35,225 nucleotides of DNA from Devosia sp. (GTDB lineage: Bacteria; Pseudomonadota; Alphaproteobacteria; Rhizobiales; Devosiaceae): assembly GCA_026126125.1 (NCBI GenBank), contig JAHCJW010000018.1:1-35225 (forward strand), read 5' to 3'. A program made the translations under genes and the position numbers. Below are positions 4,365-34,225 of the stretch, piece by piece. Under the pieces are notes generated by a model. That model had not been told where the DNA came from. It saw nothing but the letters and a program-made list of their open reading frames with translations, and searched no databases. How positions within the stretch are numbered: position 1 is the stretch's first letter; every line of letters begins with the position of its first letter.

Positions 4365-4398
4365 AAAGGCCGACGCGGTTTCCCGCGTCGGCCTTTTT
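4365..4398. terminator. Bidirectional terminator between serB and hflC
   Basis: A perfect 14-bp stem (4365-4378 with 4383-4396) has a 4-base loop, a T-run on the plus strand and an A-run at its left foot. It lies between the convergent serB and hflC genes and can end both transcripts. Confidence 0.9.
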
Positions 4399-12519: not shown

Positions 12520-12593
12520 GCGTGACACGTATCGCCGTTTTGAGCTTGACACCAGCGTGTTGTGTATGACACAGAATGCGTTATAGACAACAC
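12513..12593. promoter_or_regulatory. Repressor operators and divergent early/repressor promoters
   Basis: Three related 16-bp sites lie between the repressor and the early operon. O1 (12513-12528) is GTGTCATGCGTGACAC, a perfect dyad over the repressor start. O2 (12557-12572) is GTGTTGTGTATGACAC. O3 (12578-12593), read on the minus strand, is GTGTTGTCTATAACGC. An extra TGACAC half-site is at 12547-12552. O2 and O3 are 21 bases apart, two helical turns, and cover a possible rightward promoter (TTGTGT at 12560, TATAGA at 12582, 16-base spacer). A leftward promoter for the repressor probably uses TTGTCT on the opposite strand. The roles are inferred from position and symmetry. Confidence 0.65.
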
Positions 12594-13041: not shown

Positions 13042-13157
13042 CACGCCCGGCCAACCAGGGGGTTCGGCGCGCGATGAAGGCCTTCCTCGCTGAAAAAGCG
13101 GCAGCTCATGCTGCCTCAAAGCATCCTCTAACTACCACGAGTATCCATGACCACTAA
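13038..13157 (+). CDS. 39-residue early ORF, unknown
   Basis: It starts with ATG at 13038, overlapping the previous stop (ATGA), and ends 11 bases inside the ParB-like gene. The product, opening MTRPANQGVRRAMKAFLAEK, is basic and helical. The tight overlaps on both sides suggest translational coupling. It has no recognisable family and is supported mainly by context. Confidence 0.4.
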   Translation: MTRPANQGVRRAMKAFLAEKAAAHAASKHPLTTTSIHDH

Positions 13158-14037
13158 GCGCGCTTTAAAGGCGGCTGCAGAGCCGCTCGCTATTGCCTAT
13201 TCGCTGATCCCGTTGGGGCTGATCGATGTGCCAGCCGACCGGCTGCGCCAGCCAGATGCGGATTGGGTGCATGTGATCGGCAAGAGCATGGCCGAGAGCG
13301 GTCAATTGCAACCGATCCGCGTCACGCCGGCCGAGGATGGCCGCTATGAGCTGGTGTTTGGCCTGGCGCGCCTGCTGGCCGCCCGTGAACTGGGCTGGGC
13401 CAGCGTGGATGCCGGCATCGTCGAAGCCGAAGCGCTTGACGATCAGCACAAACGGCTCGCCCATATTTTCGAGAACCTGATCCGTCACGACCTCAAGGCG
13501 CTCGACCGCGCGATCGCGCTGGCGGAGATGAAGCGCATCCACGAGGCCCTTTATCCCGAGACGAAAAACGGCGGCGACCGTAAGTCAAAACAATGGCTTA
13601 GTGATCAGAATGCCAAGTTGGCAGTCTGGTCTTTCAGCCAGGAAGCAACCGAAAAGACCGGCTTCTCGGAACGTGCCATTTTTCGCGCCGTTGCCATTGC
13701 CGAGGGGCTCACCCCGGCGAGCCTAGAACGCCTACGCGGCTCCGCGTTCGATAATGATCAGGCCGGGCTCTCCATTCTCGCCGAGCTGACCCACGGCCTG
13801 CAGGCGGCAGTGCTGGATATCGTGCTGGCCGAAAAGCCCCGCGCCAGCTCGATTGCCGATGCGTTGATCCTGGCGCGGGGTGGCAAACTCGCCAGTGCAG
13901 CGGAGAAGCGGTTTGCCTCGCTGGCCGATAGCCTGTCGCGCTTCAAGCCGGCCGAGCGGGCGCAGATTTTTGCCCTGCATGAGGATGAAGTTCTGGCCTG
14001 GGCCGAGAAGCGCCTGGTGGAGCTTGGTCGGGCATGA
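13147..14037 (+). CDS. ParB-like nuclease-domain protein
   Basis: A 296-residue protein with a ParB/Srx-type N-terminal domain at about residues 20-115. The strand-helix pattern PLGLIDVPADRLRQ, the block SMAESGQLQPIRVTP and the box FGLARLLAARELGW correspond to the domain's conserved motifs. A central linker (ETKNGGDRKSKQ) leads to a helix-turn-helix-like part (EKTGFSERAIFRAVAIAEGL), followed by a helical C-terminus. Genes of this kind stand directly upstream of the transposase in several alphaproteobacterial Mu-like phages and are absent from Mu itself. The role may be regulation or a CTP-dependent clamp near the phage ends; this is inference. It overlaps the transposase gene by four bases (ATGA). 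Confidence 0.8.
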   Translation: MTTKRALKAAAEPLAIAYSLIPLGLIDVPADRLRQPDADWVHVIGKSMAESGQLQPIRVTPAEDGRYELVFGLARLLAARELGWASVDAGIVEAEALDDQHKRLAHIFENLIRHDLKALDRAIALAEMKRIHEALYPETKNGGDRKSKQWLSDQNAKLAVWSFSQEATEKTGFSERAIFRAVAIAEGLTPASLERLRGSAFDNDQAGLSILAELTHGLQAAVLDIVLAEKPRASSIADALILARGGKLASAAEKRFASLADSLSRFKPAERAQIFALHEDEVLAWAEKRLVELGRA

Positions 14038-16295
14038 CCGCACAGTGGCTTTCCCTGGCTGAAATCGCTGACCTGAAGCTGGCCGGCCTTCCCAAGACGC
14101 GGCGCGGCATGGCCGCATATGCCGAGCGTGAGGGCTGGGACGGTTACGGCGCGCTTGCACGTATCCGTGCCGGTCGTGAGGGCGGCGGCGGCTGGGAATA
14201 CCACATCGATCTTCTGCCGATCTGGTCGCGGCTGGACTATCTCAGCCGCGACATCGAGATAGAGGTCACCGAGCAGGCCGTTCCCTTCGAAGATGATGAT
14301 GATCTGACCCCGCAGGGCCGCACCGCGCGCGATGCACGGCTGGCGCTGGTGGCAGCGGCGGATAAATTTGCCCGTCAAACCGGATTGAAGGTCGGTTCAG
14401 CCGACCATTATTTCGCGCTGCGCTATATGGGCGGGCCGGAGGAAAAGGCCGGCGTGCCCGATGCGGTGCGCGCCCAAGTCCGCTCTATCACGGTGCCGAA
14501 CTGGGTGCGCTTCAACGTTCGCACCCTCAGCGCCCGCAATATTGCCCGCTGGCGTAGCAAGGCCCGCAACCTTGGCACGGAAGCACTGGGCTTCGACCCC
14601 GCTCTGAGCCGCAAAGGAACCGGCATCCTCGACCGAGCTCATGGAGGCGAGGTCAAGCACTACATCCTGGCGCTGGTGGTGAAGAACCCGGCCTTCACGG
14701 CAGAATCGATCCGCAACACGGTTATCGAGCGCTATTGCGCGGACAAAGACAATCCCGAGCTTGCCGATGCCAATGGTGAACTCAAGACGCTGCCGAACCT
14801 GCGCGCTTTCCAGCGCACCCTGTCGATCTGGAAGGAAGAGCACAGCAACGAGCTGATGCGTCTGACCGATCCGGACGGCTATCTCTCGAAGGTCGAATTC
14901 GTCGCCACGGGCACCACCACGGCGCAACGACTCAACGAGCGCTGGCAGATCGACGCCAGCCCTCTCGACGCCAAGGTGTTTCCAGAAGGCGCCGTCACCA
15001 TGGATGGCAAGCGTCCGACGATCTATTCGTGCATCGACATTTTTTGCCGGCGCATGATCATCCTGGTCACCTCGACGCCACGCGCCTCGGCCGTTGGTCT
15101 GTTGCTGCGCAAAACCATTATTGCTTGGGGCGTGCCGGAAGAGGTCAAGACCGACAACGGCAGCGATTTCAAAGCGCATTATGTCCAGCGGCTGCTGCGC
15201 GATCTGAAGATCGAGATGATCCCGACCAAGGCGTACGATCCGCGCGCCAAGGGTGTGGTCGAGCGCTCCATCCGCACCTTCCAGCACAATTTCGCGGCCC
15301 GCCTGCCCGGCTTCGTCGGACATAACCCCGGACAACGCACGGTCCTGGAAAATCGCAAGGCCTTCAGCGAGCGCCTCGGGCTCGACGATGCGCACCTGTT
15401 CGGCGTCGAGTTGACCTTTGCCCAGGCGGCCGAAATGGCCGATCATTGGGCCGGTGTGGAGTATGAGCACCGCCCGCACTCGGGCAAGACGATGCGCGGG
15501 CGGACGCCGTTCGAGGTCGCTGCCAGCTATCAGGGCGAAATCCGCCGCATCGAGAATATCGCAGCCCTGGACATGTTGCTGGCGCCGGTGGCGGGCAGCA
15601 AGGGCGATGGCATCCGCACCGTTGGTCATGAAGGTATCGCGGTCAACAAGGCCCATTACCACCTCGGCACGCTCATGGTCGGCGACAAGGTTTTGTGCCG
15701 CCAGGACCCGATGGATTTGGGCCGGCTTCGCGTCTTCAAGCCCGATGGCGAAACTTATCTCGGCGAAGCGATCTGTCCGCAATTGCTAGGCCTAGACCCC
15801 GTCGAGACCATCGCCCGCGTGCGCGCGACACAAAAGGCCATGCACGACAAGGTGGTTGCTCCCATCCGCAAGATGGCCAGAAAGATCGGGCCGCTCGAGG
15901 TAGCGAACGCACAGCGTGCTGCCGCCGACCGGCGCAAGGGCAATCTCGTCGCCTTCCCGAACCCGACCGCCAAATATGAAACGGCGGCTCTGCGGGCGGC
16001 GCTCGATGCCGTCACGCCGGAAAAGCCGCGCGAAGTCGACGCGCGCACCAAGGCCGAGCAGGCAAGGCTGATCAGCAAGGCCAAAACCACGGCCAAGCCC
16101 GGCAATGTCGCGGCATTGCCCGAAACGCCCGAGCACCGGTATCGCCGCGCCATGGCGCTGCATGCTCGCATGGATGCCGGCCAGCCGATCCCGGCCGCAG
16201 AGGCCAAATGGCTCGAGCGCTACACCAAAAGTTCAGAATTCAGGGGGCTCTCGCGAATGGCTGCGCAACAGCGCGGACGTGCCGAAGAAGCCTGA
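14034..16295 (+). CDS. MuA-type DDE transposase
   Basis: A 753-residue protein that would cut and join the prophage ends for integration and replicative transposition. An N-terminal Mu-type helix-turn-helix region (SLAEIADLKLAGLPKTRRGM) recognises DNA, followed by further end-binding domains. The catalytic core has Asp307 in RWQIDASPLD, Asp374 in VKTDNGSDF and Glu410 in KGVVERSIRTF, a complete DDE triad with 35 residues between the last two. The beta-barrel Mu C domain follows, and the last 100 or so residues (Lys/Ala-rich, ending near YTKSSEFRGL) would contact MuB and ClpX. It is longer than Mu A (663 residues). It overlaps the ParB-like gene; MuB follows after 79 bases. Confidence 0.95.
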   Translation: MTAQWLSLAEIADLKLAGLPKTRRGMAAYAEREGWDGYGALARIRAGREGGGGWEYHIDLLPIWSRLDYLSRDIEIEVTEQAVPFEDDDDLTPQGRTARDARLALVAAADKFARQTGLKVGSADHYFALRYMGGPEEKAGVPDAVRAQVRSITVPNWVRFNVRTLSARNIARWRSKARNLGTEALGFDPALSRKGTGILDRAHGGEVKHYILALVVKNPAFTAESIRNTVIERYCADKDNPELADANGELKTLPNLRAFQRTLSIWKEEHSNELMRLTDPDGYLSKVEFVATGTTTAQRLNERWQIDASPLDAKVFPEGAVTMDGKRPTIYSCIDIFCRRMIILVTSTPRASAVGLLLRKTIIAWGVPEEVKTDNGSDFKAHYVQRLLRDLKIEMIPTKAYDPRAKGVVERSIRTFQHNFAARLPGFVGHNPGQRTVLENRKAFSERLGLDDAHLFGVELTFAQAAEMADHWAGVEYEHRPHSGKTMRGRTPFEVAASYQGEIRRIENIAALDMLLAPVAGSKGDGIRTVGHEGIAVNKAHYHLGTLMVGDKVLCRQDPMDLGRLRVFKPDGETYLGEAICPQLLGLDPVETIARVRATQKAMHDKVVAPIRKMARKIGPLEVANAQRAAADRRKGNLVAFPNPTAKYETAALRAALDAVTPEKPREVDARTKAEQARLISKAKTTAKPGNVAALPETPEHRYRRAMALHARMDAGQPIPAAEAKWLERYTKSSEFRGLSRMAAQQRGRAEEA

Positions 16296-16300
16296 AAAAC

Positions 16301-16353
16301 GAAAGGCCCGGTGTCGGACCCGGACCTTTCAAAAGGAGCCCGCAGGAGCGGGT
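16301..16353 (+). other. Two hairpins between the transposase and MuB genes
   Basis: An 11-bp stem with one mismatch (16301-16311 with 16320-16330, arm GAAAGGCCCGG) is followed by a 6-bp stem (about 16338-16343 with 16348-16353, loop AGGA). No T-run follows either, so simple termination is doubtful. They could protect or process the transcript, or tune the ratio of transposase to MuB. Confidence 0.45.
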
Positions 16354-16374
16354 CTGTTGCGAAAGGAAGATGTA

Positions 16375-17094
16375 ATGAAAGCTCAATCCCCCGTCAATCG
16401 CTACCGCGACCCAATCGCGGCCACGCGCAACGCGGCGACGTTCTCGGTCATGTTGCAGCGCCTCATCGACATGCCGATCACCCGCGATCGGATGGGGGCG
16501 TTTTCGGGCACGCCTGGCTTCGGAAAGACCAAGGCGGCAGCGTTCGTTGCCAATACCTATCGCACCCGCTACATCTCCTGCGGCCTCTTGACCACGGCGC
16601 GCTCGTTGCTGTCCGACATCCTCATGGAGTTGGGCGAGCATGAAGTTCGCGGCAACAATGTCGACCTGCTCAACCGCGCCATCTACCTGTTGGCGCACGA
16701 TCCTCAGCGCCCCCTCATCATAGACGAGGCCCATTATGTTGCCGCGCGCCGTTTCGTCGACGTGTTGCGCCATATCCATGATGCTGCTCGGGTCCCGGTG
16801 GTTCTGATCGGTGAGCCGACGCTGTTGCGGCGCCTGGAATCCTTTCCCATGGTCCGCAGCCGGGTCGGTCGGGTCGTAGCAGAGGCCCTGCCCTGCGACA
16901 TGACCGATTTCAGGCTCCTGGCGGAAGAGCACTTCCCTACCCTCGAAATTGCCGAAGACCTTGCCGTCAGCATTCTCGAGAGCGAGAGCGGCAATGCACG
17001 CGATATCGTCTCCCGCCTCAGCGATATCCACGAGCAGGCCTTGCTGCTCGGCCGTGATCGCATGACGCTGGCCGACATTGACGAGGCCGCGTAA
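16375..17094 (+). CDS. MuB-type AAA+ ATPase, transposition target selector
   Basis: A 239-residue ATPase that binds target DNA as an ATP-dependent filament, delivers it to the transposase and gives target immunity. The Walker A motif GTPGFGKT is at residues 45-52 and Walker B LIIDEAHY at 114-121. Sensor and arginine elements follow (VVLIGEPTLLRRLE, MVRSRVGRVV), then a short C-terminal helical domain. It lacks the N-terminal helix-turn-helix of Mu B (312 residues) and resembles the shorter ATPases of alphaproteobacterial Mu-like phages. ATG 16375 follows a good GAAAGGAAG site. The stop TAA overlaps the next start (TAATG). Confidence 0.93.
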   Translation: MKAQSPVNRYRDPIAATRNAATFSVMLQRLIDMPITRDRMGAFSGTPGFGKTKAAAFVANTYRTRYISCGLLTTARSLLSDILMELGEHEVRGNNVDLLNRAIYLLAHDPQRPLIIDEAHYVAARRFVDVLRHIHDAARVPVVLIGEPTLLRRLESFPMVRSRVGRVVAEALPCDMTDFRLLAEEHFPTLEIAEDLAVSILESESGNARDIVSRLSDIHEQALLLGRDRMTLADIDEAA

Positions 17095-19954: not shown

Positions 19955-20737
19955 ATGTCTCCCTCTCAGAAATTCCTCGACTGCCACAAGGTCACGGCCG
20001 GCTGGGAAGGCACCTGGTCGAACCACCCGTCCGATCCCGGTGGCAAGACCATGTATGGCATCACCGAGGCGGTGTTTCATGCCTGGCTGAAAAAACTCGG
20101 CCGTCCGCTGCGGCCTGTCCGATCGATCACCAAGACCGAAGCCCTCGAAATCTATTTCTCCGATTATTGGCTGAAGGCCGGCTGCGAAACTCTGTTCGCC
20201 GGGGTCGATCTCGCCACCTATGACGCTTCCGTCAACTCCGGGGTGTCGCGCGGGCGGAAATGGCTGGTGGTCGGGCTCGACAAGGCCAATCGCCACGACC
20301 AGACCGTGCGCAATATCTGCCGGCAGCGCCTCGGTTTCGTCGAAGGACTGACGAACTGGAAGGTGTTCGGCAAAGGCTGGGGCAATCGCATCGCCGATAT
20401 CGAAGCCAAGGGAGTGGCCCGCGCGTTGCGCGCCATGGCGATGAACGACAGCCAGGTGCCGGAAGCGCTGATCGACGAAGCCCAAAAGGCCAAACAGACC
20501 GCCGCCGCCCAGAACAAGGGGGGCAGTGCCTCGGGCGCGGCCGCTGCCGGCAGTGGCGCCACCATCACCCTCGACCCGGCCGGCGCCGATCTTCTGGCGG
20601 GCTTCCTGCTCTCGGGCTTGCTCGTCGGCGGTGTGGCCCTTGCGGTCTGGCTGTTCTTCCGCGCTCGCGTCAATCGCCAGCGCGCCACCGCCTATGAGGA
20701 TACGGCTCGTCAGGTTGCTGTTGGAGGGGCCGTCTGA
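19955..20737 (+). CDS. GH108-family endolysin with C-terminal membrane helix
   Basis: A 260-residue lysozyme-like enzyme that cleaves peptidoglycan glycan strands. The GH108 signature is at the N-terminus: catalytic Glu18 in AGWEGTWSNHPSDPGGKTMY, then GIT. The catalytic and peptidoglycan-binding parts fill residues 1-165, with the conserved ATYDASVNSG helix. A Gly/Ala/Ser-rich linker follows, then a hydrophobic helix (about 208-231, LLAGFLLSGLLVGGVALAVW) and a basic tail. A C-terminal anchor is unusual for an endolysin and would hold the enzyme at the inner membrane until the holin acts. It is the first late gene; its stop overlaps the holin start (TGATG). Confidence 0.85.
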   Translation: MSPSQKFLDCHKVTAGWEGTWSNHPSDPGGKTMYGITEAVFHAWLKKLGRPLRPVRSITKTEALEIYFSDYWLKAGCETLFAGVDLATYDASVNSGVSRGRKWLVVGLDKANRHDQTVRNICRQRLGFVEGLTNWKVFGKGWGNRIADIEAKGVARALRAMAMNDSQVPEALIDEAQKAKQTAAAQNKGGSASGAAAAGSGATITLDPAGADLLAGFLLSGLLVGGVALAVWLFFRARVNRQRATAYEDTARQVAVGGAV

Positions 20738-22112: not shown

Positions 22113-22712
22113 GTGAGCGCCCGTCGCGGCCGTGGCCGGCTCAATGCTTTCGATTTGCTCCCGGAAGAATGCGACCCGATCATCGCGCGGGCCGCCGAGG
22201 CGCTGCGCGATCGCGAGCGGACCCAGCTCGAGATCTACACCGCGTTTTACGACGCGTGCCAGACGCTCATGGCCGAAAGCCATGGCGAGCTGGTTTTCGA
22301 CATCCCGTCGAAATCGGCCTTTAACCGCTATTCAATCCGCCTTGCCACCATGACGCGGCGGATCGAGGAAACCCGCGAAATCGCCGCTTCCATCGCCTCG
22401 CGCTTCGATCCCGAGGCGTCCGACGATCTCACCCTGATCGCGGCCGAGGCCATCAAGACGCTGGTGTGGGAGGTTCTGACCTCGGCCGGGGAAAGCGGCA
22501 TCGATCCCAAGGGCGCCATGTCGCTGGCCAATGCCCTGCGCTCGGCCGTCCAGGCGCAGGGGCTTTCCACGCAACGCCGGCTCAAGATCGAGAAGGATTT
22601 TGCCGACAAGGCGACGGCAGCAGTGCAGACGGCGGCCAAGGCACGCGGCCTCAGCCAGGAAACGGCCCAGGACATTCTTTCCCAAATCCTCGGTGTCGAG
22701 GTGCCGAAGTGA
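22113..22712 (+). CDS. Small terminase subunit (DUF3486, Mu gp27-like)
   Basis: A 199-residue, mainly helical protein opening with a GTG start (SARRGRGRLNAFDLLPEECD). It matches the DUF3486/Mu gp27 family, the DNA-recognition subunit that brings phage DNA to the large terminase. The basic N-terminus and a helix-turn-helix region (GELVFDIPSKSAFNRYSIRL) agree with DNA binding, and the C-terminal helices probably form the ring. A zinc-ribbon gene overlaps its stop (GTGA). Confidence 0.82.
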   Translation: MSARRGRGRLNAFDLLPEECDPIIARAAEALRDRERTQLEIYTAFYDACQTLMAESHGELVFDIPSKSAFNRYSIRLATMTRRIEETREIAASIASRFDPEASDDLTLIAAEAIKTLVWEVLTSAGESGIDPKGAMSLANALRSAVQAQGLSTQRRLKIEKDFADKATAAVQTAAKARGLSQETAQDILSQILGVEVPK

Positions 22713-22987
22713 GGCCGATCCGCGCGTGTTCGTGCTGCCAGTGCGGGGCACCGATCCGGCTCACGCCGTTTCTCACCATCGCCGATGTCGTCGATTTGAC
22801 CGAGGGCCTTTGCAAACACTGCCTTCGGCTCGTCCCTCCAGATCGCCGGGATCTGTTTGGCGCGTGCCGTCTCGAGCAGCGCGTTCAACCGGGCCTTGAG
22901 CAGCTTGTCATGTTCCTGCGCGCCTGGGAGGCCGTCAAGATGAGTGTGCGGGAACGCGCGCCGCATATTTGCCGGAGGGTCGCGTGA
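22709..22987 (+). CDS. Zinc-ribbon phage protein, unknown
   Basis: A 92-residue protein from a GTG at 22709 that overlaps the small-terminase stop. CxxC pairs at Cys9-Cys12 (CCQCGAPI) and Cys35-Cys38 (GLCKHCLRL) form a probable zinc ribbon; the rest is helical and basic. It is coupled to the large terminase gene (GTGA overlap at 22984). A small zinc protein between the two terminase subunits is not part of the Mu layout; it may assist packaging, but nothing proves it. Confidence 0.6.
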   Translation: MRPIRACSCCQCGAPIRLTPFLTIADVVDLTEGLCKHCLRLVPPDRRDLFGACRLEQRVQPGLEQLVMFLRAWEAVKMSVRERAPHICRRVA

Positions 22988-24621
22988 CCGTCCCGATTAC
23001 AAAGCAACAATGGGAGGAAATGCGGCGCGAGGCCACCAGCGCCTTGCCAGCCGTCATTGCGGAAGTTGGGCTCCCCAAAGCCCTGCTGCCGTATCAGGCG
23101 CGCGCGGTAGCGCTGCTGGAATCGGTCTCGACCGAAGTCCTGTTCATCGAGAAGTCCCGTCGCATTGGCCTCACCTGGGCACTCGCGGCAGAAGCGGTGC
23201 TCCGAGCCGCCCGGCAAAAACGCGCTCGCGGGATGGACAGCATGTACATCTCGTACAACCGCGAGATGACGCTCGAATTTGTCGATGCATGCGCGATGTG
23301 GGCGCGTGCCTACAATCTGGCTGCAATGGAGTCCGAGGAGTTTTTGTTCGACGACAGCGATGAAACCGGCGACCGGTCCATCCAGTCTTTCCGAATCCGA
23401 TTTGCCTCCGGGTTCGAAATCGTGGCCCTCTCGTCTGCCCCCCGCACGCTGCGCGGTAAGCAGGGTCTGCTGATCATCGACGAAGCCGCCTTCATCGACA
23501 GCCTTAAGGAAACCCTCAAAGCCGGCCTCGCCTTCCTGATGTGGGGCGGGCAGGTGGTTGTCTGCTCGACCCACAATGGCACCGACAACGAATTCAACGT
23601 CCAGATTCAGGATATTCTGGCCGAGCGGTCGCCCTATGCGCATATGCGGATCGATCTGGACGAGGCGCTGCTCGACGGGCTCTATCAGCGCATCTGTCTT
23701 GTTCGTGGCATCGAGTGGACGCCCGAGCTGGAAGCAGAATGGCGCCAGAAGACCATCGATTTCTATCGGGACGCCGCCGACGAAGAGCTTTTCTGCATTC
23801 CTACCCAGGGCTCTGGCGCCTGGCTGACGACGCCGCTGATCGAATCCCGCATGACCTCGGACGGCCCGATCCTGCGCCTCGAGCTACCCGAGGACTATCT
23901 GCAACTGCCCGAGCAGCGCCAGAAACAGTTGATGGCGCCGTTCCTGGAAGAACTGGACGAGGCTCTGGCCCGCCTCGACAAGCGCAAGAGCCATGCGGCC
24001 GGCTTCGACTTCGGCCGCGTGCGCGACCTGTCCGTATTGCCCTTGCTCTCGATCGATAAGGTGCTCAACCGCAAGCTCGAGCTGACAATCGAAATGCGCC
24101 GCGTGCCTGGTCATGAACAGAAGCTCATCACCCGTCGCGTTTTGGAGCGCGCGCCGCGCCTGGTCGGCGCTGCCTTCGACGCGGTCGGCATGGGCTGGAC
24201 GGTGGCCGAAGACATGGGCCGCATTTTTGGCCTGCGGGAAACCGAGGAGGAGACAGGTCTTTGCTGGGCCATCAAGCTCTCGGAGAACTGGTATCGCCTG
24301 CATATGCCGCCGGTTAAAGCCGCATTTGAAGACGGCATTCTGGCGATCTCGAAAGACCTCGAGCATCTGACCGACCTGCGCATCGTCAAGGTCGTTCGCG
24401 GCACCCCGCGCGTTCCGGACGTTCGCACCGGCGATGAAGGCAAGAAACGCCATGGTGACTTCACCATTGGGCTGGCCCTCGCCTATTTCGCCAGCCGCAT
24501 GCAGTGGTTCGAATATGGCTATGTCGCGGTGAATGAGCTGGAGCGCCTCGGCCGCCCCTCTCTGTTTGAAGAACCTATGCGCGGCGGCATCGACCCCGAT
24601 TTTGATGAAGGACTATTCTGA
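22984..24621 (+). CDS. Large terminase subunit (Mu gp28-like)
   Basis: A 545-residue packaging motor. The ATPase half has a Walker A variant IEKSRRIGLTWA (residues 55-66) and Walker B LLIIDEAAFID. The RNase H-like nuclease half opens with Asp in AGFDFGRVRDLSVL, with further acidic residues in VGAAFDAVGMGW and KRHGDFTIGLALAY. This is the normal order and length for Mu gp28 relatives. GTG at 22984 is preferred because GGAGGG precedes it; a TTG five codons upstream is also in frame. It overlaps the portal gene by one base. Confidence 0.92.
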   Translation: MTVPITKQQWEEMRREATSALPAVIAEVGLPKALLPYQARAVALLESVSTEVLFIEKSRRIGLTWALAAEAVLRAARQKRARGMDSMYISYNREMTLEFVDACAMWARAYNLAAMESEEFLFDDSDETGDRSIQSFRIRFASGFEIVALSSAPRTLRGKQGLLIIDEAAFIDSLKETLKAGLAFLMWGGQVVVCSTHNGTDNEFNVQIQDILAERSPYAHMRIDLDEALLDGLYQRICLVRGIEWTPELEAEWRQKTIDFYRDAADEELFCIPTQGSGAWLTTPLIESRMTSDGPILRLELPEDYLQLPEQRQKQLMAPFLEELDEALARLDKRKSHAAGFDFGRVRDLSVLPLLSIDKVLNRKLELTIEMRRVPGHEQKLITRRVLERAPRLVGAAFDAVGMGWTVAEDMGRIFGLRETEEETGLCWAIKLSENWYRLHMPPVKAAFEDGILAISKDLEHLTDLRIVKVVRGTPRVPDVRTGDEGKKRHGDFTIGLALAYFASRMQWFEYGYVAVNELERLGRPSLFEEPMRGGIDPDFDEGLF

Positions 24622-26237
24622 TGGCGCGCTCGCCCCAGCTGCTCGATCATCTTGGCATGCCGGTCAATCTGGCCTCCCTACGCAAGCCAGTCGCCGCGCC
24701 GGCCGTGGGCGATGTCGTTTCGGTCTGGACGGAATCGGTCGCCTCGGGCCTCACCTCGCGTTCTCTGGCTCAAATCCTGAGCAGTGCCGCCCGAGGCTAT
24801 CCCGACCGCTTCTTTGGCCTTGCCGAAGACATGGAAGAGCGCGACCTCCATTATGGTTCGGTACTGGCCACCCGCAAGATGGCGGTGACCGGCGTCGAAC
24901 CCATCGTAGTGCCGGCGTCGAAGGATGCCGAGGATATGAAGCTCGCCGACGCTGTGCGTGAGCTGGTGACCGACCCGGTCTTTGCCGATGACTATGTTGC
25001 CGATCTGCTCGATGCGCTGGGCAAGGGCTACGCCCTCGTCGAAACCATCTGGGACCGATCGGGCAAAGAATGGCGGCCGAAGGGGTATGAGCGCAGAGAC
25101 CAGCGTCATTTCGTGCTCGACCAGGTCGACGGAAGAACTCTGCGGCGCAAGGTGCCTGGAAAGATCGACGGCGAGGACCTGCCGCCCTTTCAGTTCTCGA
25201 TCCATCACCCCAAGCGTAAATCCGGTCTTTCTGTTCGCGGCGGTCTCGCCCGTCTTGCCGCCTGGGCGTTTGTGTTCAAGTCGTACACGCTCAAGGACTG
25301 GATGGCCTTTATCGAGGTCTATGGCATGCCGCTGCGCCTCGGCCGTTTCGGTCGCGATGCCAGCGACGATGACAAGCGCGTGCTGTTACGCGCCGTGCGC
25401 GACCTCTCCAGCGATGCTGCCGCCATCGTGCCTCAAGGCATGGATATCGAGTTCATCGAGAGCAAGGGTGCCACCGGTAATGCCGTTTTCGACGGCATGG
25501 CGGGCTATCTCGACCGGCAAATCTCGAAGGGCGTCCTCGGCCAGACGATGACCACGGACGATGGCTCGTCGTTGTCTCAGGCCAAAATTCACGAAGGGGT
25601 GCGCATCGACATCGCCCGCAGCGACGGGCGCCAGATTGCCACCACGGCCAATCGCGATCTTGTCCGGCCCTTCGTCGATCTCAACTTTGGGCCGCGCGAT
25701 CGCTACCCCACCGTGGTCTGGCCGATCACCGAAAGCGAGGACATCAACATCCTCTCGGAGGTTGTCGAGCGGTCGGTGCGGATGGGCGTGCAAATTTCGG
25801 CCGATGAGTATCGCGAGCGGATCGGGTTCGGGGCTCCCGAGACCGGGGCCGCCGTCCTCGTCGCCGCGCCGCCGGCGTCGATCAGCCGGCCAGGAGAGCC
25901 GCCTGTTGATCACGATGCCGAGCTCGAAAATGAAGACGAAGCCCAGGCCCGGTTCTGCGGCCATTGCTGCGGCTATCACACCTCGACGGCGGCCGCCCAG
26001 GACGCCCATGGCGAGCTTGATGGGCTGGTTGAAGATGCGTTGAAGGACTGGCAACAGGACCTTGAACCGCTCATCGCGCCGATCCGCGCTTTGTTCGAAC
26101 GGGCACAATCCTATCAGCAGCTGCTGGCGGGTCTCGAAGACCTCGAGGCAAAGCTCGATAGCGGTCCGCTGGCCGATCGCCTGGCCAAGCTGATGATGAA
26201 GGCGCGGGGCCTCGGAGACACCGGCGAGGCCAATTGA
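24621..26237 (+). CDS. Portal protein (DUF935, Mu gp29-like)
   Basis: A 538-residue protein of the DUF935 family, forming the dodecameric ring through which DNA enters the head. Recognisable stretches are LAEDMEERDLHYGSVLATRK near the N-terminus, DLLDALGKGYALVETIWDRS, the IEVYGMPLRLGRFGRDASDD core and the late TVVWPITESEDINILSEVVE. A CxxC motif (RFCGHCCGYH) near residue 453 is followed by a helical C-terminus. It lies between the large terminase and the gp30-like gene, as in Mu. Confidence 0.9.
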   Translation: MARSPQLLDHLGMPVNLASLRKPVAAPAVGDVVSVWTESVASGLTSRSLAQILSSAARGYPDRFFGLAEDMEERDLHYGSVLATRKMAVTGVEPIVVPASKDAEDMKLADAVRELVTDPVFADDYVADLLDALGKGYALVETIWDRSGKEWRPKGYERRDQRHFVLDQVDGRTLRRKVPGKIDGEDLPPFQFSIHHPKRKSGLSVRGGLARLAAWAFVFKSYTLKDWMAFIEVYGMPLRLGRFGRDASDDDKRVLLRAVRDLSSDAAAIVPQGMDIEFIESKGATGNAVFDGMAGYLDRQISKGVLGQTMTTDDGSSLSQAKIHEGVRIDIARSDGRQIATTANRDLVRPFVDLNFGPRDRYPTVVWPITESEDINILSEVVERSVRMGVQISADEYRERIGFGAPETGAAVLVAAPPASISRPGEPPVDHDAELENEDEAQARFCGHCCGYHTSTAAAQDAHGELDGLVEDALKDWQQDLEPLIAPIRALFERAQSYQQLLAGLEDLEAKLDSGPLADRLAKLMMKARGLGDTGEAN

Positions 26238-27445
26238 TGGTCGAGGTTCCGGAAGTCTTCAAAACCGCGCCGGCCGAGGTCAAGCGATACTTCGAGGCCA
26301 AGCGCAGCCAGCCCAGCTTCGATTGGCGCGACCTCGCCCCAGAAGAACATGCCTTTTCCTTCACCGTCGCAAAATCGGCGGGCTACGATGTGCTCGACGA
26401 TATCCGGGCGGCAGTCGATAGCGCCATCACCCATCGCGTGCCCTTCGAGCAATTCCAGCAGAACCTGACGCCGATCCTCCAGGCGAAAGGCTGGTGGGGC
26501 AGCACCAAGGCCGTCGACCCGCAGACCGGCGAAACGGTCGACGTGCAGTTGGGCAGTCCTCGCCGGCTGCGCACCATCTATTGGGCCAATACGATGACGG
26601 CGCACGCGGCCGGCGAATGGGACCGGACCCAGCGCAACAAACGCTTCCTGCCCTTCCTCGTCTACACGCGCAGCACCGCCGAGAACAAACGGCCAGAGCA
26701 TGAGGGCTGGGTTGGGATCGTCCTGCCGGTCGATCATCCTTTCTGGGATACGCATTACCCGCCCAATGGCTGGCTCTGCAAATGCGGCGTTCGGCAGATC
26801 TCGCGCGCCGAGGCGGAGCGGCTTGGCTATCGACCAGACCAGAAGGTTATCGAGATCAAGACCTGGCGCTGGTACAATAAGCGCACCGGCGAGTGGCACG
26901 AGGTGCCGGAAGGCGTCGATCCGGGCTGGGCGAACAATCCGGGCAAGAACCGGGCCGCGAACGCATCGCGGTTCCTCTACGATCAACTGGCGGCGATGCC
27001 GACGCATCGTCAGGCTGTTGCCATCGAGGACATCGTCGGCTCGCCCGTACTGAAGGCCATGGCGGATGGCAAAATGGCCAAGGGCAGCTTTGTGCCCATT
27101 GCCCAAATGCCGGAGCCGGCAGTCTCGGCCTTCGAGGCATCCACGCCCTTGGTTCGCCTGTCCTCCGACAGCGTCCAGCACATCATCTCCGAATATCCCG
27201 AGCGGGCGCTTCATGTCGCCGATTTGCGCCAGGCGCTTTCCGTGGTGCTGCGGCCCGAGGCGATCATCCAGGGCGACCGGGCCGCGGTGATGATGGGCGC
27301 GGCGGCCGGCGTCTGGTGGAGGGTGGTGGTAAAGCCCGCAAAGGACGGCGAGCAATGGTGGCTCACCAGCTTCCATCGCAAAAGCGAGAAGGAAGCATTG
27401 CGGGCAATTCGGCGTGCCAGGGAAAACGGAAAGCTGTTGGAGTGA
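26237..27445 (+). CDS. Head morphogenesis protein gpF/gp30-like with PBECR-type C-terminus
   Basis: A 402-residue minor head protein. Residues 40-190 form the phage Mu F domain, including the conserved RTIYWANTMTAHAAGEWDRT, the GWVGIVLPVDHPFWDTHYPP block and the WLCKCGVRQ cysteine motif. Residues about 300-402 form a separate domain (SSDSVQHIISEYPE, VWWRVVVKPAKDGEQWWLTS, FHRK) resembling the PBECR group of phage-borne barnase/EndoU/RelE-like nucleases that is often fused to this protein. Such a domain may be injected with the DNA and act in the new host; activity is inferred. ATG 26237 overlaps the portal stop. Confidence 0.88.
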   Translation: MVEVPEVFKTAPAEVKRYFEAKRSQPSFDWRDLAPEEHAFSFTVAKSAGYDVLDDIRAAVDSAITHRVPFEQFQQNLTPILQAKGWWGSTKAVDPQTGETVDVQLGSPRRLRTIYWANTMTAHAAGEWDRTQRNKRFLPFLVYTRSTAENKRPEHEGWVGIVLPVDHPFWDTHYPPNGWLCKCGVRQISRAEAERLGYRPDQKVIEIKTWRWYNKRTGEWHEVPEGVDPGWANNPGKNRAANASRFLYDQLAAMPTHRQAVAIEDIVGSPVLKAMADGKMAKGSFVPIAQMPEPAVSAFEASTPLVRLSSDSVQHIISEYPERALHVADLRQALSVVLRPEAIIQGDRAAVMMGAAAGVWWRVVVKPAKDGEQWWLTSFHRKSEKEALRAIRRARENGKLLE

Positions 27446-28176: not shown

Positions 28177-28198
28177 GTGCGCATCCATGTTGTCGCCC

Positions 28199-29254
28199 AT
28201 GACGACGCGCACCGCAACCACCGATTTGTTCACCGATCTTGCCGCCGAAAGCGGACAGGCCCCCGACTGGGTGCAGCTGCTTCCGGCTGGGCCGGAGATT
28301 GTTGCACGCGACGGCCGGCGCTGGACGTTCGAGCCGCAGACCATCCTCAACGCCTTCACAGCCAATCGCGGCCCGCTGGTCATCGACTACGAGCATGGCC
28401 AGGATCATCTGGCGACGGCGGGCGTCAAGGCGCCGGCCGCTGGCTGGATTACGGCCATGGAAGCCCGCGACGGCGCCATCTGGGGCAAGGTCGAATGGAC
28501 CGCCACGGCCGCCCGCGAAATCGTCGAGCGCGCCTATCGCTTCCTCTCCCCCTCCATGCGCCACACCAAAAATGGCGTGCTGACCCGTCTCCAGGGCGCC
28601 GGCCTCGTCAATCGTCCGGCCCTCGAAATGACGGCTCTCAGCCGTGAAGAACACTCCCACCAAAAGGAACCTTTGATGACCCTCAAGGCCATCGCCACGG
28701 CCCTTGGCCTGGCAGACAGCGCCGGCGAGGCTGCAGTTCTTGCGGCCATCGCCGGGCGCGACACCGAGCGCGAGACCCTGTGCTCCGCCCTCGCCATCGA
28801 TGTGGCGTCGGATACGGCGGCGCTGACCACTGCAGTGACCACATTGGTCAATGACCACAAGACCGCTCTGGCGCGCGCCGAGGACACCTCCGAGCTGGAA
28901 ACCCTCCGCACCTCGCTCGCCAGCATCCAGGCTGATCGTCTCACCGAGAAGATCGAGAAGGCGCTGGATGACGCGCAGGCTGCCGGCAAGATCACACCGG
29001 CCAGCCGTGGCGATTATCTGGCCATGTGCCAGGTCGAGGGTGGACTGGGCCGCTTCGAAAGCCTCGTCAAGACTTTGCCGGTCATTGGTGAGCCGAGCGG
29101 CATCGGCAACACAAGCCCCGCCACCGACGATGCTGCCGAGCCAGATTCCGTCGCGCTGGCCGCCGCCGCCCGCAAATACCAGGACGAACAGGCCGCCCTG
29201 GGCATCCATATCTCGACCGCCCAGGCGGTCCTGCATGTGAGGGACACGAAGTGA
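28199..29254 (+). CDS. Head maturation protease with scaffold (Mu gpI-like)
   Basis: A 351-residue protein. The first 145 or so residues are the Mu gpI protease domain, with the pattern RRWTFEPQTILNAF, then PLVIDYEHGQ, GWITAMEARDGAIWGKVEW and YRFLSPSMRHTKNG. The remainder is coiled coil and acidic, as in a scaffold. The protease trims scaffold and head proteins during capsid assembly. ATG 28199 is chosen; an ATG four codons upstream is also in frame. A nested start at 28676 would make the scaffold alone. Its stop overlaps the DUF2190 gene (GTGA). Confidence 0.88.
   Translation: MTTRTATTDLFTDLAAESGQAPDWVQLLPAGPEIVARDGRRWTFEPQTILNAFTANRGPLVIDYEHGQDHLATAGVKAPAAGWITAMEARDGAIWGKVEWTATAAREIVERAYRFLSPSMRHTKNGVLTRLQGAGLVNRPALEMTALSREEHSHQKEPLMTLKAIATALGLADSAGEAAVLAAIAGRDTERETLCSALAIDVASDTAALTTAVTTLVNDHKTALARAEDTSELETLRTSLASIQADRLTEKIEKALDDAQAAGKITPASRGDYLAMCQVEGGLGRFESLVKTLPVIGEPSGIGNTSPATDDAAEPDSVALAAAARKYQDEQAALGIHISTAQAVLHVRDTK
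28676..29254 (+). CDS. Nested scaffold protein (Mu gpZ-like)
   Basis: Inside the protease gene, in the same frame, ATG 28676 follows AAAAGGAACCTTTG, a good ribosome-binding site. The 192-residue product (opening MTLKAIATALGLADSAGEAA) is exactly the helical scaffold part. In Mu, gene Z is likewise translated from within gene I, giving free scaffold in excess over protease. The nested start is seen in the sequence; its use is inferred from Mu. Confidence 0.65.
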   Translation: MTLKAIATALGLADSAGEAAVLAAIAGRDTERETLCSALAIDVASDTAALTTAVTTLVNDHKTALARAEDTSELETLRTSLASIQADRLTEKIEKALDDAQAAGKITPASRGDYLAMCQVEGGLGRFESLVKTLPVIGEPSGIGNTSPATDDAAEPDSVALAAAARKYQDEQAALGIHISTAQAVLHVRDTK

Positions 29255-29643
29255 CCAGCTACACCCCGACACTCACAAAATCCTATCGCGTTGCCAGCGC
29301 CATTGCCGGCTATCTGATCGTGGCCGCTTCTGCCACCGACAAGGTGGTCGAAGTGGCAAACAGCGCCACCGATCCTCTGCTCGGCGCCGCTGGCTCCATG
29401 GGTGCCCCCGAGGGCGGCCTTGTCGATGTCGATCTTGCCGGCATTGGCGAGGTCCGGATCGGCGGCGATGTCGATTTCGGCGATCCTCTGACCTCCGACG
29501 CCAATGGCAAGGCGGTCAAGGCCGTCCCGGTTGCCGGATCGGTGGTGCGCATCATCGGCTTTGCCCAGGCCGACGGCGCCGATGGCGATATCGCGCCCTA
29601 TCTCATCGCCCCCGGCGTCCTCGCCACTCCGGCCGCTGGCTGA
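29251..29643 (+). CDS. DUF2190 family capsid decoration-like protein
   Basis: A 130-residue beta-rich protein with a GTG start that overlaps the protease stop. It opens TSYTPTLTKSYRVASAIAGY and contains the glycine-rich DUF2190 pattern GLVDVDLAGIGEVRIGGDVD, then FGDPLTSDANGKAV. DUF2190 proteins lie next to the capsid gene in many phages and resemble head-decoration or stabilising proteins. It is intact, and the capsid start follows after 38 bases. Confidence 0.82.
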   Translation: MTSYTPTLTKSYRVASAIAGYLIVAASATDKVVEVANSATDPLLGAAGSMGAPEGGLVDVDLAGIGEVRIGGDVDFGDPLTSDANGKAVKAVPVAGSVVRIIGFAQADGADGDIAPYLIAPGVLATPAAG

Positions 29644-29681: not shown

Positions 29682-29951
29682 ATGGCGACCAATCGCCCGT
29701 TTCCCATCGACGCGACACTGACTGCGGTCGCCATCGCCTATCGCAATCCCGCGCATGCGCTGATCTATCGCCGTGCGCTGCCGCCCCTGCAGGTGCTGTC
29801 CGAACAGTTCAAGTGGAACGAGTTCCCGATCGGCGAGGCCTTCACCGTCCCCGAACTGGAAGTGGGCCGCAAGGGTCGCCCTGGTCAGGTCGAGTTCACA
29901 GCCGAAGAGCGCGACAGCTCGGTACCCGCGTCGGTTCGACCGGCGATGTAA
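29682..29951 (+). pseudogene. Major capsid protein, truncated after codon 81
   Basis: ATG 29682 follows GAAGGAAT. The first 81 residues (opening MATNRPFPIDATLTAVAIAY, later VGRKGRPGQVEFTAEERDSS) are the N-terminus of a Mu-like major head protein, normally about 300 residues or more. After Val81 the frame continues for eight unrelated codons (PASVRPAM) to TAA at 29949-29951. From about 29924 another frame encodes the C-terminal part of a tail protein. The rest of the capsid gene is therefore deleted, not merely frameshifted. The fragment lacks the HK97-type core and cannot form a shell. Confidence 0.85.
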
Positions 29952-30853
29952 CGGTCTGCATCTGCAAGCTCAATCCGGCCGGCGCGCCGGATTATGACTC
30001 GGTCATTGCCAAGGCCGTAACGCCGCATGCCGATCTGCATGAAGGCTGGGTCAGGCATTTGCTGCCGCCGCACCTGATCGAACAGGGCAATCGCTATGCC
30101 TGGTTCGTGGTCACCTCGGGCAATCACCAGATTGCCGCCAACACCGGCGCCAATACCTTCGCCGGGGGCAGCAAGTTCGTTTGCACCGATGGCATCTGGA
30201 GCCAGGGCTCAACGACCGACGATTTCTCCTTCCGCTACAACGGCGCCAAGTTCGAAAAGAACCGCACCGTGGTGGAGATGAACGCCGCCGTGCTGCCTGG
30301 CGGGTTCACCGAACTGCGCATGGTGTTTCAGGGCTGGGAGCCGGCCGGCACCCAGCGCAGCTGGGAAATCAAACCCTTCGGGGTCGAGGACTGGATTCCC
30401 TTCGACGCCCGGCCCGACAATCCCCTGGCCAATTTGCCGGCGCAGGCGAGCCTGCGCATGGTCATGCAGGGGACCGAGGATCTGGCGCCGATGATCATCC
30501 TCGACACCCATGCAGTGATGATCACCGGTCGCATGCGCAATGACCTGCGCGGCGTCTCCAAGGACCTGGCCTTCGGCTTTGCCACCGAGACGATCGAAAT
30601 GATCGTCAACATGGATGCCTTTGACATTGCCCATCATGACCTGGTGCCGCGCCTACGCGTCGGCGCCGCGGTCGTTGATGCGGATTCGGTCACGGCGACG
30701 GTCGATCCGACCAAGCCGAGCCGCACCACGTACAAAGCCATTTTTGATTTCGCCGGCGCGCCGATCACCGGTGCTCGCGTCCAGCTCGAAGGGAACACCG
30801 ACACGGTGGTGAAGGTGCCTTTCGTTCAGGACATCCAGCTCAACGCCTTCTGA
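29924..30853 (+). pseudogene. Phage tail protein, C-terminal fragment without a start
   Basis: An open frame of about 309 codons begins at the deletion point (TRVGSTGDVTVCICKLNPAG) and ends at TGA 30851-30853. It has repeated beta-sandwich-like segments (NRYAWFVVTSGNHQIAANTG, NRTVVEMNAAVLPGGFTELR) and a C-terminal part with GARVQLEGNTDTVVKVPFVQ. It resembles the distal part of large tail or host-recognition proteins of alphaproteobacterial phages. The N-terminus and any start codon were lost in the deletion. It cannot be made as a normal protein unless by re-initiation after the capsid fragment. Confidence 0.72.
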
Positions 30854-30863
30854 GGACGGGACC

Positions 30864-31043
30864 ATGGCCGAACCAATCGAATATGAGGCGGACGCCAGTT
30901 TCATCGCTCGCGTCAAACAAATCGTCGAGATCGGGCCGATCAAGTATCTGCCGCGCGACGAAATGAAAGTTAAGGGCCGGCTGCTCAACAAGATCGTCGG
31001 CAAGTATGGGGAGAGCGTGATTGACTACGCCAATCCCGCCTGA
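30864..31043 (+). CDS. Small phage protein, unknown (59 aa)
   Basis: A 59-residue charged, helical protein opening MAEPIEYEADASFIARVKQI, starting ten bases after the tail-protein fragment, with a GAGGACGGG sequence upstream. It overlaps the next frame by 23 bases. Its position after the tail protein suggests a tail-associated or chaperone role, but no family is recognised. Confidence 0.55.
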   Translation: MAEPIEYEADASFIARVKQIVEIGPIKYLPRDEMKVKGRLLNKIVGKYGESVIDYANPA

Positions 31044-31203
31044 GGGCTATCAGATCCCGCCCCACAACCCGAGCGGGCGCGCCTGGTGGCAGGCCACGCT
31101 CAACAATCTCAACGGGCGTCTGGTCGATATCAAGGCTGAGATCGCGGTCACGCTCGAAGGTCTGGGCGAGAACGCGACCACGACCGTCATCGCCTATGTA
31201 TAG
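31021..31203 (+). CDS. Small phage protein, unknown (60 aa)
   Basis: A TTG start at 31021 gives 60 residues opening MTTPIPPEGYQIPPHNPSGR. GGGGAG lies six bases upstream, and a stop directly before the TTG leaves no earlier start in frame. It overlaps the preceding gene by 23 bases, and the fibre-like gene follows six bases after its stop. The central part (WWQATLNNLNGRLVDIKAEI) is amphipathic. No family recognised. Confidence 0.5.
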   Translation: MTTPIPPEGYQIPPHNPSGRAWWQATLNNLNGRLVDIKAEIAVTLEGLGENATTTVIAYV

Positions 31204-31209
31204 AATTCA

Positions 31210-31725
31210 GTGGCGCCCAATATCGCTCAGCTGCAGGCGCAGATTGCCGCCCTGGTCAGCGAGTTGAACCTGGCCGAAGACGTCCTCGCCGCCCTGCAGA
31301 ATTCAGGCATACCGGCCTCGAACGTGCCGGTCGCCGAGACGGACAGCTTTCCGGAGGGCACCACAGCGCAAGAGGCGCTGGAGCTGCTCGACAGCCTCAT
31401 TGAGGCGCTGGCCTCCGCGACCGAAACGGCGCTCGGTCAGGTCGAACCGCCGCAATTGGTGCGGACGGTCACCGTCAATACCGAGCTGGCTGCCGGCCGC
31501 GCCTATCGCCTGCGCAATACCGGCATCACGTTGACACTGCCGGCCGCGCCTGTCGCCAATGCCACGATCCGGATCACGGATGGCGAGGTGTTGAGCGCAA
31601 CAGCGACAGTCGCGCTCGCGCGCAATGGCCAGACCATCATGGGCCTACCTGAAAACCTCACCCTCGACCTCGGTGGGGTTGATCTCCTGCTTTGGTTCAA
31701 CGGCGTCACCTGGAGGCTTTTCTAA
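31210..31725 (+). CDS. Tail-fibre-like structural protein
   Basis: A 171-residue protein with a GTG start. A coiled-coil N-terminus (APNIAQLQAQIAALVSELNL) is followed by a short acidic linker containing EGTTAQEALELLDSLIEALA and a beta-rich C-terminal domain (RTVTVNTELAAGRAYRLRNT, ending VDLLLWFNGVTWRLF). The trimer-like coiled coil plus beta domain fits a fibre or fibre-base protein. The next gene starts directly after its stop. Confidence 0.6.
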   Translation: MAPNIAQLQAQIAALVSELNLAEDVLAALQNSGIPASNVPVAETDSFPEGTTAQEALELLDSLIEALASATETALGQVEPPQLVRTVTVNTELAAGRAYRLRNTGITLTLPAAPVANATIRITDGEVLSATATVALARNGQTIMGLPENLTLDLGGVDLLLWFNGVTWRLF

Positions 31726-32700
31726 GTGAGCAATCTTTCTGATTTTTTGAACAGGCCGCAGCCGCAAAAGGCCGCCCGCATCGGTGCGCCCGGCTCGAAT
31801 GGCTATTGGCGGCGGGATATTTTTGGGAAGCCTGGCACCTATATCTGGAAAGCGCAAAAGGCCGGGAAGATCAAAATCCAAGGGATTGGTGCGGCTAGCG
31901 GCGGCTCGGGCGACGTCGCCGGGGCTTCAGGGGCATTCGGCGAGAAGACGTTGACTGTAGCTGTTGGAGACCAGTTGGCCATCGTGGTGGGCGCGGGTGG
32001 GGCGGGCAGTATCAACACCGTTCTCTCAACGCCGGGCGGCTCATCATCTGTAAGCGGCACCCCGGTGGGCGGCACGCCTCTTACGCTCGCTGGTGCGGCT
32101 GGTGTTACGGGCAGTCCCGTCTCAGGAACCATCGCGGGGGTTCCGTCTGGCCCTTGGGATCTTTCGTACTCGGGGGCTGTCATGACGGTGAACAACACTG
32201 GAAGTCCATCCTCGGCCTCGCCTTTCGGTCCGGGACTAAAATCGACTGGCCAAGGTGGCGCCGGGTGGGGTGGTGGCGCTTCCGGACAGGGGGGTGGATC
32301 TACTCATAGGCCAGCTGTAGGCACTAACGGCGCGCGGGGCTTGTTCGCTCTCGGGGGACGCGAAGGCCTCAAGGAAGTAGAACTGCACGGCCAAACCTAC
32401 GGCGACATATGGGACTTGCGGGACGCCGACAGTGGCGGCGGCGCCTGGGGAAGCTGGACGCGCGATAGCGGCACGGCCGTTACCGCCAACGGCGGCACCG
32501 CTGGCCCTGGTGCGGGTGGCGGGGCGTCGGCAGCCATAGCAGGAGCATCTTCATTTGGTGGCGGCACTGGAAAGTCACTCAGTAATGCGGCGGACTTGAA
32601 ATCTGGTTCAGGTGCCGGAGGCGGAGGCGCGCAGAACGGGTCCGGTGGTATCGGTGGCGATGCAATATTCTTTGTCTTCTGGGATGAGGTCGCGGAATGA
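31726..32700 (+). CDS. Glycine-rich tail adhesin-like protein
   Basis: A 324-residue protein from GTG 31726. After a short N-terminal domain (RDIFGKPGTYIWKAQKAGKI) it is dominated by glycine-rich runs (GAGGAGSINTVLSTPGGSSS, GQGGAGWGGGASGQGGG, PGAGGGASAAIAG, GSGAGGGGAQNGSGGIGGDA), the composition of polyglycine-helix adhesins at phage fibre tips that decide receptor specificity. It closes with DAIFFVFWDEVAE. Codon choice in the middle is less GC-biased than in its neighbours, consistent with recent exchange of a fibre tip. The next gene overlaps it by ATGA. Confidence 0.72.
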   Translation: MSNLSDFLNRPQPQKAARIGAPGSNGYWRRDIFGKPGTYIWKAQKAGKIKIQGIGAASGGSGDVAGASGAFGEKTLTVAVGDQLAIVVGAGGAGSINTVLSTPGGSSSVSGTPVGGTPLTLAGAAGVTGSPVSGTIAGVPSGPWDLSYSGAVMTVNNTGSPSSASPFGPGLKSTGQGGAGWGGGASGQGGGSTHRPAVGTNGARGLFALGGREGLKEVELHGQTYGDIWDLRDADSGGGAWGSWTRDSGTAVTANGGTAGPGAGGGASAAIAGASSFGGGTGKSLSNAADLKSGSGAGGGGAQNGSGGIGGDAIFFVFWDEVAE

Positions 32701-33149
32701 AAATCTGGGCACGTATTGAAGACAGCGTCGTGGTCGAAACGCTTCGGCACCCGGAAAGCCCGGCCGCGCTTTTTCCCGCCGAATGGGTTTGGGTCGAGTG
32801 TCCCGAAGGCACCAGGCCCAACGCCAGCTATGACGGCGAGGCCTTCACCAATCCCCCCGATCCCGAGCCGCCCGCAGTGCCCGAACCGCCGCCCCCGCCG
32901 GAGCCCGTCAACATCCCGGTACCGCATTTCAAGATGCGGTTCACCCCGCAGGAGCGGGTGTCCTTCAAGACCGCCGCCGCAAGCGCAGACCCTCTCGCTC
33001 CATACGTCGCCGACTGGCTCGCCCTACTGGACGATCCTCGGCTTGAATATGTGACGATCGGTGACCCAAACCTGACGGCCGCGCTGCAGATGCTGGTCGA
33101 TGCCGGGCTGCTCACACTGGAGCGCAAGGCCGAAGTGCTGGGCGCATGA
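32697..33149 (+). CDS. Phage tail accessory protein, proline-rich
   Basis: A 150-residue protein opening MKIWARIEDSVVVETLRHPE. A small beta domain (1-55) is followed by a proline-rich linker (PPDPEPPAVPEPPPPPEP) and a helical C-terminus (VSFKTAAASADPLAPYVADW). Proteins of this form often lie just after fibre genes and act in fibre assembly or as baseplate accessories; this assignment is by position. It starts within the stop of the glycine-rich gene. Confidence 0.6.
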   Translation: MKIWARIEDSVVVETLRHPESPAALFPAEWVWVECPEGTRPNASYDGEAFTNPPDPEPPAVPEPPPPPEPVNIPVPHFKMRFTPQERVSFKTAAASADPLAPYVADWLALLDDPRLEYVTIGDPNLTAALQMLVDAGLLTLERKAEVLGA

Positions 33150-33541: not shown

Positions 33542-33790
33542 ATGAGTGCTTTCACCGGCTCCGGCGCTGTCTATCCATTCCGGGCCGCCGATACCGGCAA
33601 CTGGGAATGGGTGCTGGCCGAAGACCTGATCTGGGAGGTTCGCGGGCCGGAAGCGACCTTCGCCATCATCATCCCGGCTGGCTTCCAAACCGATCTGGGC
33701 TCAATCCCCTGGTATGGCCGCTGGCTGGTCAATCCCGCCGATCCCCAGCTCGCCAAGGCCTTTGGTAAGCGCCAAGGCGGCCGCGTCTGA
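33542..33790 (+). pseudogene. DUF1353 family phage protein, cut by IS66
   Basis: The first 74 residues follow the DUF1353 pattern: EWVLAEDLIWEVRG, then IIPAGFQTDLGSIPWYGRWL and NPADPQLAKAF. In the family this continues into a conserved HDWLY-type motif. Here the frame enters the IS66 end at 33765 and gains eight foreign residues before TGA at 33788-33790. The remainder should lie beyond the other end of the insertion. DUF1353 genes occur near phage tail and lysis genes; function is unknown. Confidence 0.8.
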
Positions 33791-33847
33791 CGCTTTGGCT
33801 TGATTTGGATTATTTGCACCTCTGATTTTATGACGGTGTGAGTTTCT

Positions 33848-34225
33848 ATGTCTGCTCCTATGGCCAGTGATAGAAGTTTCCAATTGCTGGAGGTGGTGCC
33901 GGGCCGGATGGACAGCAGTCCTGCGGTATCGCGGCGGAACTGGCCCGATGAGACCAAGGCTCGGATCCTTGAAGAGGCGCTTGCCCCGGACGCGAACGTG
34001 TCGGCCGTAGCGCGCCGATACGGACTGTCGCCCTCGCAATTGTTCGGCTGGCGGCGCAAAGCCTTTGCCAAAGGCCAGGTTGAGCGGCTTGAGACGCTGA
34101 GCGAGAAGCATGCTTGCTCGGGCGGGACTGTCGAGATCGAGATCGCAGGTGCCGTGATCCGGGTTGGCCCGACAATCAGCGAGGATCACCTGCGCCGTGT
34201 CGTTCGCGCTGTTCGGTCGGCATGA
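33848..34225 (+). CDS. tnpA: IS66 accessory protein TnpA
   Basis: A 125-residue protein with a helix-turn-helix of the transposase-8 type (WPDETKARILEEALAPDANV, SAVARRYGLSPSQLFGWRRK) and a short beta-rich C-terminus containing GTVEIEIAGAVIRVG. It is needed with TnpB for IS66 transposition and probably binds the element ends. ATG 33848 is the first good start inside the element. The stop overlaps tnpB by ATGA. Confidence 0.92.
   Translation: MSAPMASDRSFQLLEVVPGRMDSSPAVSRRNWPDETKARILEEALAPDANVSAVARRYGLSPSQLFGWRRKAFAKGQVERLETLSEKHACSGGTVEIEIAGAVIRVGPTISEDHLRRVVRAVRSA

Follow-up and report, generated by a model that had tools for sequence, protein, structure and literature searches.

A capsid gene cut after codon 81 and joined to the end of a tail-region gene: a probable internal deletion in a Mu-like prophage of Devosia sp.

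Ochrobactrum phage POA1180 (Abaiavirus) is a myovirus that was recovered with mitomycin C, according to the accessible part of its description (PMC5492332). Its terminase, portal position, head morphogenesis protein, protease, small gene, and capsid follow one another in the same order as in the Devosia prophage described here. Identity between the two is 70% over the capsid remnant, 58% for the portal, 52% for the protease, and only 36% for the terminase. Unlike the Devosia prophage, POA1180 has a complete capsid gene, and it gives no match to the C-terminal tail part at E 1e-3. On the tail side, counterparts are found in Aurantimonas phage AmM-1 and in the IMG/VR prophage L007. Both have a long tail-region protein (760 aa in AmM-1 and about 795 aa in L007) after the baseplate genes, and these proteins are 43% and 54% identical to our remnant, respectively. 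Their capsids differ in type, with 28% and 21% identity to our capsid remnant. In contrast to the Devosia prophage, their capsid and tail-region genes are whole, and the sheath, tube, and tape measure genes lie downstream.

Degenerating prophages undergo deletions, and an IS element can also replace head and tail genes, as described in the accessible part of one report (PMC6379469). Going by that part, deletions in resident prophages are familiar, and the present case therefore opens no new question. For phage DMS3, the accessible text describes transposition-driven deletions of host DNA and no mutations recovered in the phage (PMC11406979), so to that extent it offers no precedent for a deletion such as ours. 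The phrase “truncated capsid” did not occur among the literature matches listed. Compared with defective (“grounded” or cryptic) prophages in general, only the breakpoints of this prophage are new. We regard it as a cleanly documented case of structural gene loss by a transposable prophage, and thus as a new instance of a familiar thing.

The window (the whole stretch of DNA that was analysed) is the entire contig C90, 35,225 bases long, from a 3.9-Mb draft assembly of 302 contigs that is 91% complete. It encodes a MuA-type transposase and a MuB/TniB-type ATPase, which mark the element as a Mu-like transposable prophage. The Mu-like head genes for portal, gpF, and gpI are present, and the capsid gene is represented by an 81-codon remnant only (Table 1). 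For comparison of the capsid we used 49 matching loci among 156 fetched, 22 of which are Bartonella prophages and hence non-independent. For the tail region we used 66 viral loci, all of which match; in four the frame continues open to the end of the contig, and these four were left out of the frame-start count. Duplicate loci of one phage occur in the set (L014 and L040; L015 and L022). A second tail-region set came from 397 genomes sampled from the host's order.

Table 1. Prophage and insertion sequence features in the window, in order of position.
Feature	Position	Strand	Evidence
Mu-type transposase, open	14034..16295	+	phrog_310 E 2.8e-101; PF09299, PF02316
MuB/TniB-like transposition ATPase, open	16105..17094	+	phrog_296 E 1.9e-39, residues 95-328 of 329; PF05621, PF13401
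Endolysin, open	19955..20737	+	PF05838 E 3.9e-23
Terminase small subunit, open	22113..22712	+	phrog_426 E 1.1e-38
Terminase large subunit, open	22969..24621	+	phrog_2 E 4.3e-27
Portal protein, open	24621..26237	+	PF06074 E 1.1e-104, profile 3-335 of 336
Mu gpF-like minor head protein, open	26234..27445	+	PF04233 E 3.3e-11
Head maturation protease (Mu gpI-like), open	28187..29254	+	PF10123 E 2.2e-55, profile 1-317 of 330
Small head protein (scaffolding family by PHROG), open	29251..29643	+	phrog_673 E 1.5e-26
N-terminal 81 codons of major capsid gene	29682..29924	+	phrog_1005; POA1180 capsid; 49 related loci
Probable deletion junction (last capsid base 29923 or 29924; tail part from about 29924)	29922..29926	.	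Homology limits, 12 capsid and 13 tail relatives
Last ~310 codons of a tail-region gene (product ~750-860 aa), other frame	29924..30853	+	phrog_17470; 66 viral loci; 29 places elsewhere in the order
59-aa gene after the tail-region gene, likewise in relatives	30864..31043	+	22 of 156 loci match
Tail-region gene, probably split by in-frame TAG at 31201-31203	31021..31725	+	Both pieces match L007 frame
Glycine-rich tail-fibre-like protein and small neighbour	31726..33149	+	Order common to L077 and L080
DUF1353-type gene, apparently cut by IS66	33542..33790	+	PF07087 positions 2-44 of 91
IS66 element (TnpA, TnpB, start of TnpC)	from ~33749-33848 to 35225	+	PF01527, PF05717, PF13007, PF13005

The capsid frame (29682-29951) encodes 89 aa and ends at a stop at 29951. 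Its residues 4-81 match positions 7-82 of the 315-position PHROG profile phrog_1005 (major head protein; E 9.5e-16), and Pfam gave no match for the capsid part. The highest identity to the remnant is 78%, in the capsid of a Nitratireductor prophage (L094). Among 12 capsid relatives, codon 81 (V, 29922-29924) is the last matching position in 10; the similarity stops at codon 80 in L039 and already at codon 70 in L024. Within five residues past the match end, 10 of the 12 have the motif -DYG-, which the window does not have. The C-terminal part of the capsid is kept in all 49 relatives, and the N- and C-terminal parts share one open frame in 47. A frame break within the capsid gene occurs in L009 and L012, where both parts are retained; the capsid frame of L010 reaches the contig edge.

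The second half lies in the frame 29915-30853, where residues 4-308 match positions 446-751 of the 755-position PHROG profile phrog_17470 (function unknown; E 3.2e-94). The only Pfam match for this part is below the cut-off (E 0.041). By the position of the gene, the product would be a tail protein; the family is annotated as hypothetical or unknown. Across 13 relatives, the first residue to match is residue 4 (29924-29926) in five, residue 5 in five, residue 6 in two, and residue 7 in one. The frame starts inside the locus in 62 tail relatives, at least 231 codons upstream of the homologous part (median 469). Matches to the family occur in 28 of the 397 genomes of the order, our own included, and the best of the others reaches 44% identity. 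Outside our own genome there are 29 such places; the frame is 744-938 aa long at 28 of them and 517 aa long at the other, and our own frame has 453 aa. A shorter tail frame is seen in L084, which has a separate capsid gene upstream, and at one place in genome G065; in the sequence covered, no capsid fusion was seen at either.

The capsid matches end and the tail matches begin at about 29923/29924, so the two halves meet without a gap. An earlier sequence-only reading of this DNA had proposed exactly such a switch of frame after capsid codon 81, and profiles and relatives now bear it out to the codon. Third-position G+C agrees with a frame change at this point: the capsid frame has 0.79 up to the junction, and the tail frame has 0.58 ahead of that point and 0.81 beyond it. 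Because the two frames differ, no fusion protein is expected, and the capsid frame simply ends after 89 aa. Capsid relatives are 47-78% identical over the remnant and tail-region relatives 55% or less, identities too low for exact breakpoints or microhomology to be read. In the 10 relatives with the capsid V codon, its last base is C or G, whereas other bases precede the tail segment; judged from these distant relatives, the breakpoints probably share zero to two bases.

A fused order as the normal arrangement was rejected, because the C-terminal capsid part is present in 49 of 49 relatives and a long upstream tail part in 62 of 62. Homologues thus do not have this fusion as their usual arrangement, and the halves are separate, longer genes in the capsid and tail relatives. 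Seven loci carry both genes in order, and the distance between the equivalent breakpoints is 7,129 bp in L035, 7,291 bp in L039, 6,857 bp in L054, 6,806 bp in L076, 7,126 bp in L087, 7,636 bp in L119, and 7,907 bp in L163. The other 42 capsid relatives have no match to the tail family in the stretch examined and bear on the full-length capsid only. In relatives, the remainder of the capsid gene lies between the breakpoints, along with connectors, baseplate genes, and roughly 60% of the tail-region gene. In POA1180 and AmM-1 this region contains the rest of the capsid, small genes, baseplate genes, and tail protein, with a virion-morphogenesis gene in POA1180 and the first part of the tail-region gene in AmM-1.

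In view of these comparisons, it is very probable that one internal deletion removed about 7 kb from an apparently decaying Mu-like transposable prophage. The lost block would begin after capsid codon 81 and extend to around codon 450 of the tail-region gene, with the remnants joined out of frame, presumably by illegitimate recombination with little or no microhomology. The junction fits illegitimate end-joining or a replication slip. The element would no longer be able to make its own capsid, connectors, or baseplate, and we infer that it makes no particles. The sequence-only reading had the whole tail and head-completion block missing at this point. A large deletion stands (6.8-7.9 kb by the seven relatives, from most of the capsid gene through most of the tail-region gene), and the absence of the whole tail block at this place does not, as sheath, tube, and tape measure lie downstream in POA1180, AmM-1, and L077. 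That first impression is corrected accordingly: sheath and tape measure genes are not expected at the junction. Since these genes come further downstream in relatives and the contig ends first, they are not expected within the window either.

An assembly artefact, by which separate phage contigs, or separate stretches of a single intact prophage, were misjoined, is unlikely, although a fragmented draft that lacks part of the genome and a contig end inside an IS element leave some room for it. The junction does not resemble a repeat that collapsed during assembly. No direct repeat of at least 13 bases was found between the 80 bases around the junction and the rest of the window (the longest has 12), and the assembly contains the sequence around the junction a single time. 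Both halves are also in the correct order and on the correct strand. A misjoin of this kind is further opposed by the search for the missing block, which revealed no leftover contig. With the POA1180 capsid as query for the capsid remainder, our own assembly returned the window remnant and nothing else, and queries for the N-terminal tail part and baseplate J matched nothing else in this assembly, which is 91% complete. Sensitivity can be roughly judged from the 156 loci, of which the J query matches 81, the N-terminal tail query 67, and the tape measure query 37. The protein searches were run on our assembly by itself, and control genomes accompanied the Pfam searches only. The junction could also be a minority variant.

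The element has the character of a defective prophage: genes essential for the particle are lost, and the capsid remainder, N-terminal tail part, and baseplate J are unmatched at this level of completeness. Sheath was not found elsewhere in the assembly by protein search or by Pfam PF04984; that family gave hits in 3 of the 14 control genomes. A protein query for tape measure likewise found nothing elsewhere in the 91%-complete assembly. Both genes may be lost, unassembled (about 9% of the genome is missing), or too divergent.

No undeleted sister was found by exact-peptide patterns in 2.9 million viral contigs, where the best relative has 56% identity, and such patterns for the tail part gave no relatives in the genome collection. 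An alignment scan with the protease in the genome collection gave 70 loci, none above 57% (L094; 54% over full length), and a protein search of 61 genomes gave distant relatives only (best other 46%). Records close to the window's own genome may be absent from some of the collections. The fused layout was not seen a second time in these searches, which reach close relatives and a sample of the order.

It is very improbable that the locus is a functional rearranged gene whose product, either the short piece of capsid or a capsid-tail protein made by frameshifting, is maintained by selection. The capsid start and the purine-rich stretch before it are intact by eye, and the flanking packaging genes are open; against this, the halves are out of frame and other prophage genes look broken. 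The 23-mer across the junction also has no exact match in viral contigs, and the fusion occurs in none of the fetched relatives. Equally improbable is a young satellite, which would keep its transposition, terminase, portal, protease, and lysis genes and spread by packaging into capsids and tails made by a related intact phage, with the 89-aa fragment disturbing assembly of the helper. A restriction scar, with the block between two GGTACC sites cut out and the ends rejoined, is rejected as scarcely credible: one of the four GGTACC sites in the window does lie at the junction (29921-29926), but none is found at the matching place in 11 capsid and 13 tail relatives, and joining of GGT and ACC alone can yield the site, which is probably a by-product of the join.

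The probable internal deletion is accompanied by further apparent lesions downstream. Both pieces of the gene at 31021-31725 align in one frame to a single open 232-aa frame of L007 (68.6% and 48.0% identity). The TAG between them is a probable nonsense lesion, judging from one good comparison (L007) and in part from L032. The IS66 insertion is the third lesion, and together with the capsid deletion and the probable nonsense codon it makes the prophage look like a decaying one. The suggestion that the prophage is a natural test of what such an element is kept for found no encouragement: we saw no sign of retention, and a probable nonsense codon and an IS insertion are present. The contig ends inside the IS66 TnpC gene, and the right phage end is beyond the contig end. 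Two further IS66 transposases in the assembly, on contigs C265 and C281, belong to different elements; further stretches that match the window's IS66 are all on C265, short, and 73-81% identical. Much of the window's gene order recurs in L077, with tail segment, 59-aa gene, glycine-rich fibre, small neighbour, and a short DUF1353 match, but no split gene. The DUF1353 match (27 residues, 52%) stands directly before the sheath gene at 4394, which is followed by tube at 5590 and tape measure at 6725.

The packaging, lysis, and transposition genes are open, as had been noted from the sequence; this holds for the terminase, portal, protease, endolysin, and transposase frames. The left phage end is probably between host thyA (9263-10057) and a peptidase S24-type gene on the minus strand (11866-12552), whose product is a repressor candidate. 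A ParB-like protein (13147-14037) is encoded immediately upstream of the Mu-type transposase. The terminase large subunit is 66% identical to that of L154 (Pseudoruegeria) and about 36% identical to those of POA1180-like phages with similar capsid and portal, suggesting a mosaic origin.
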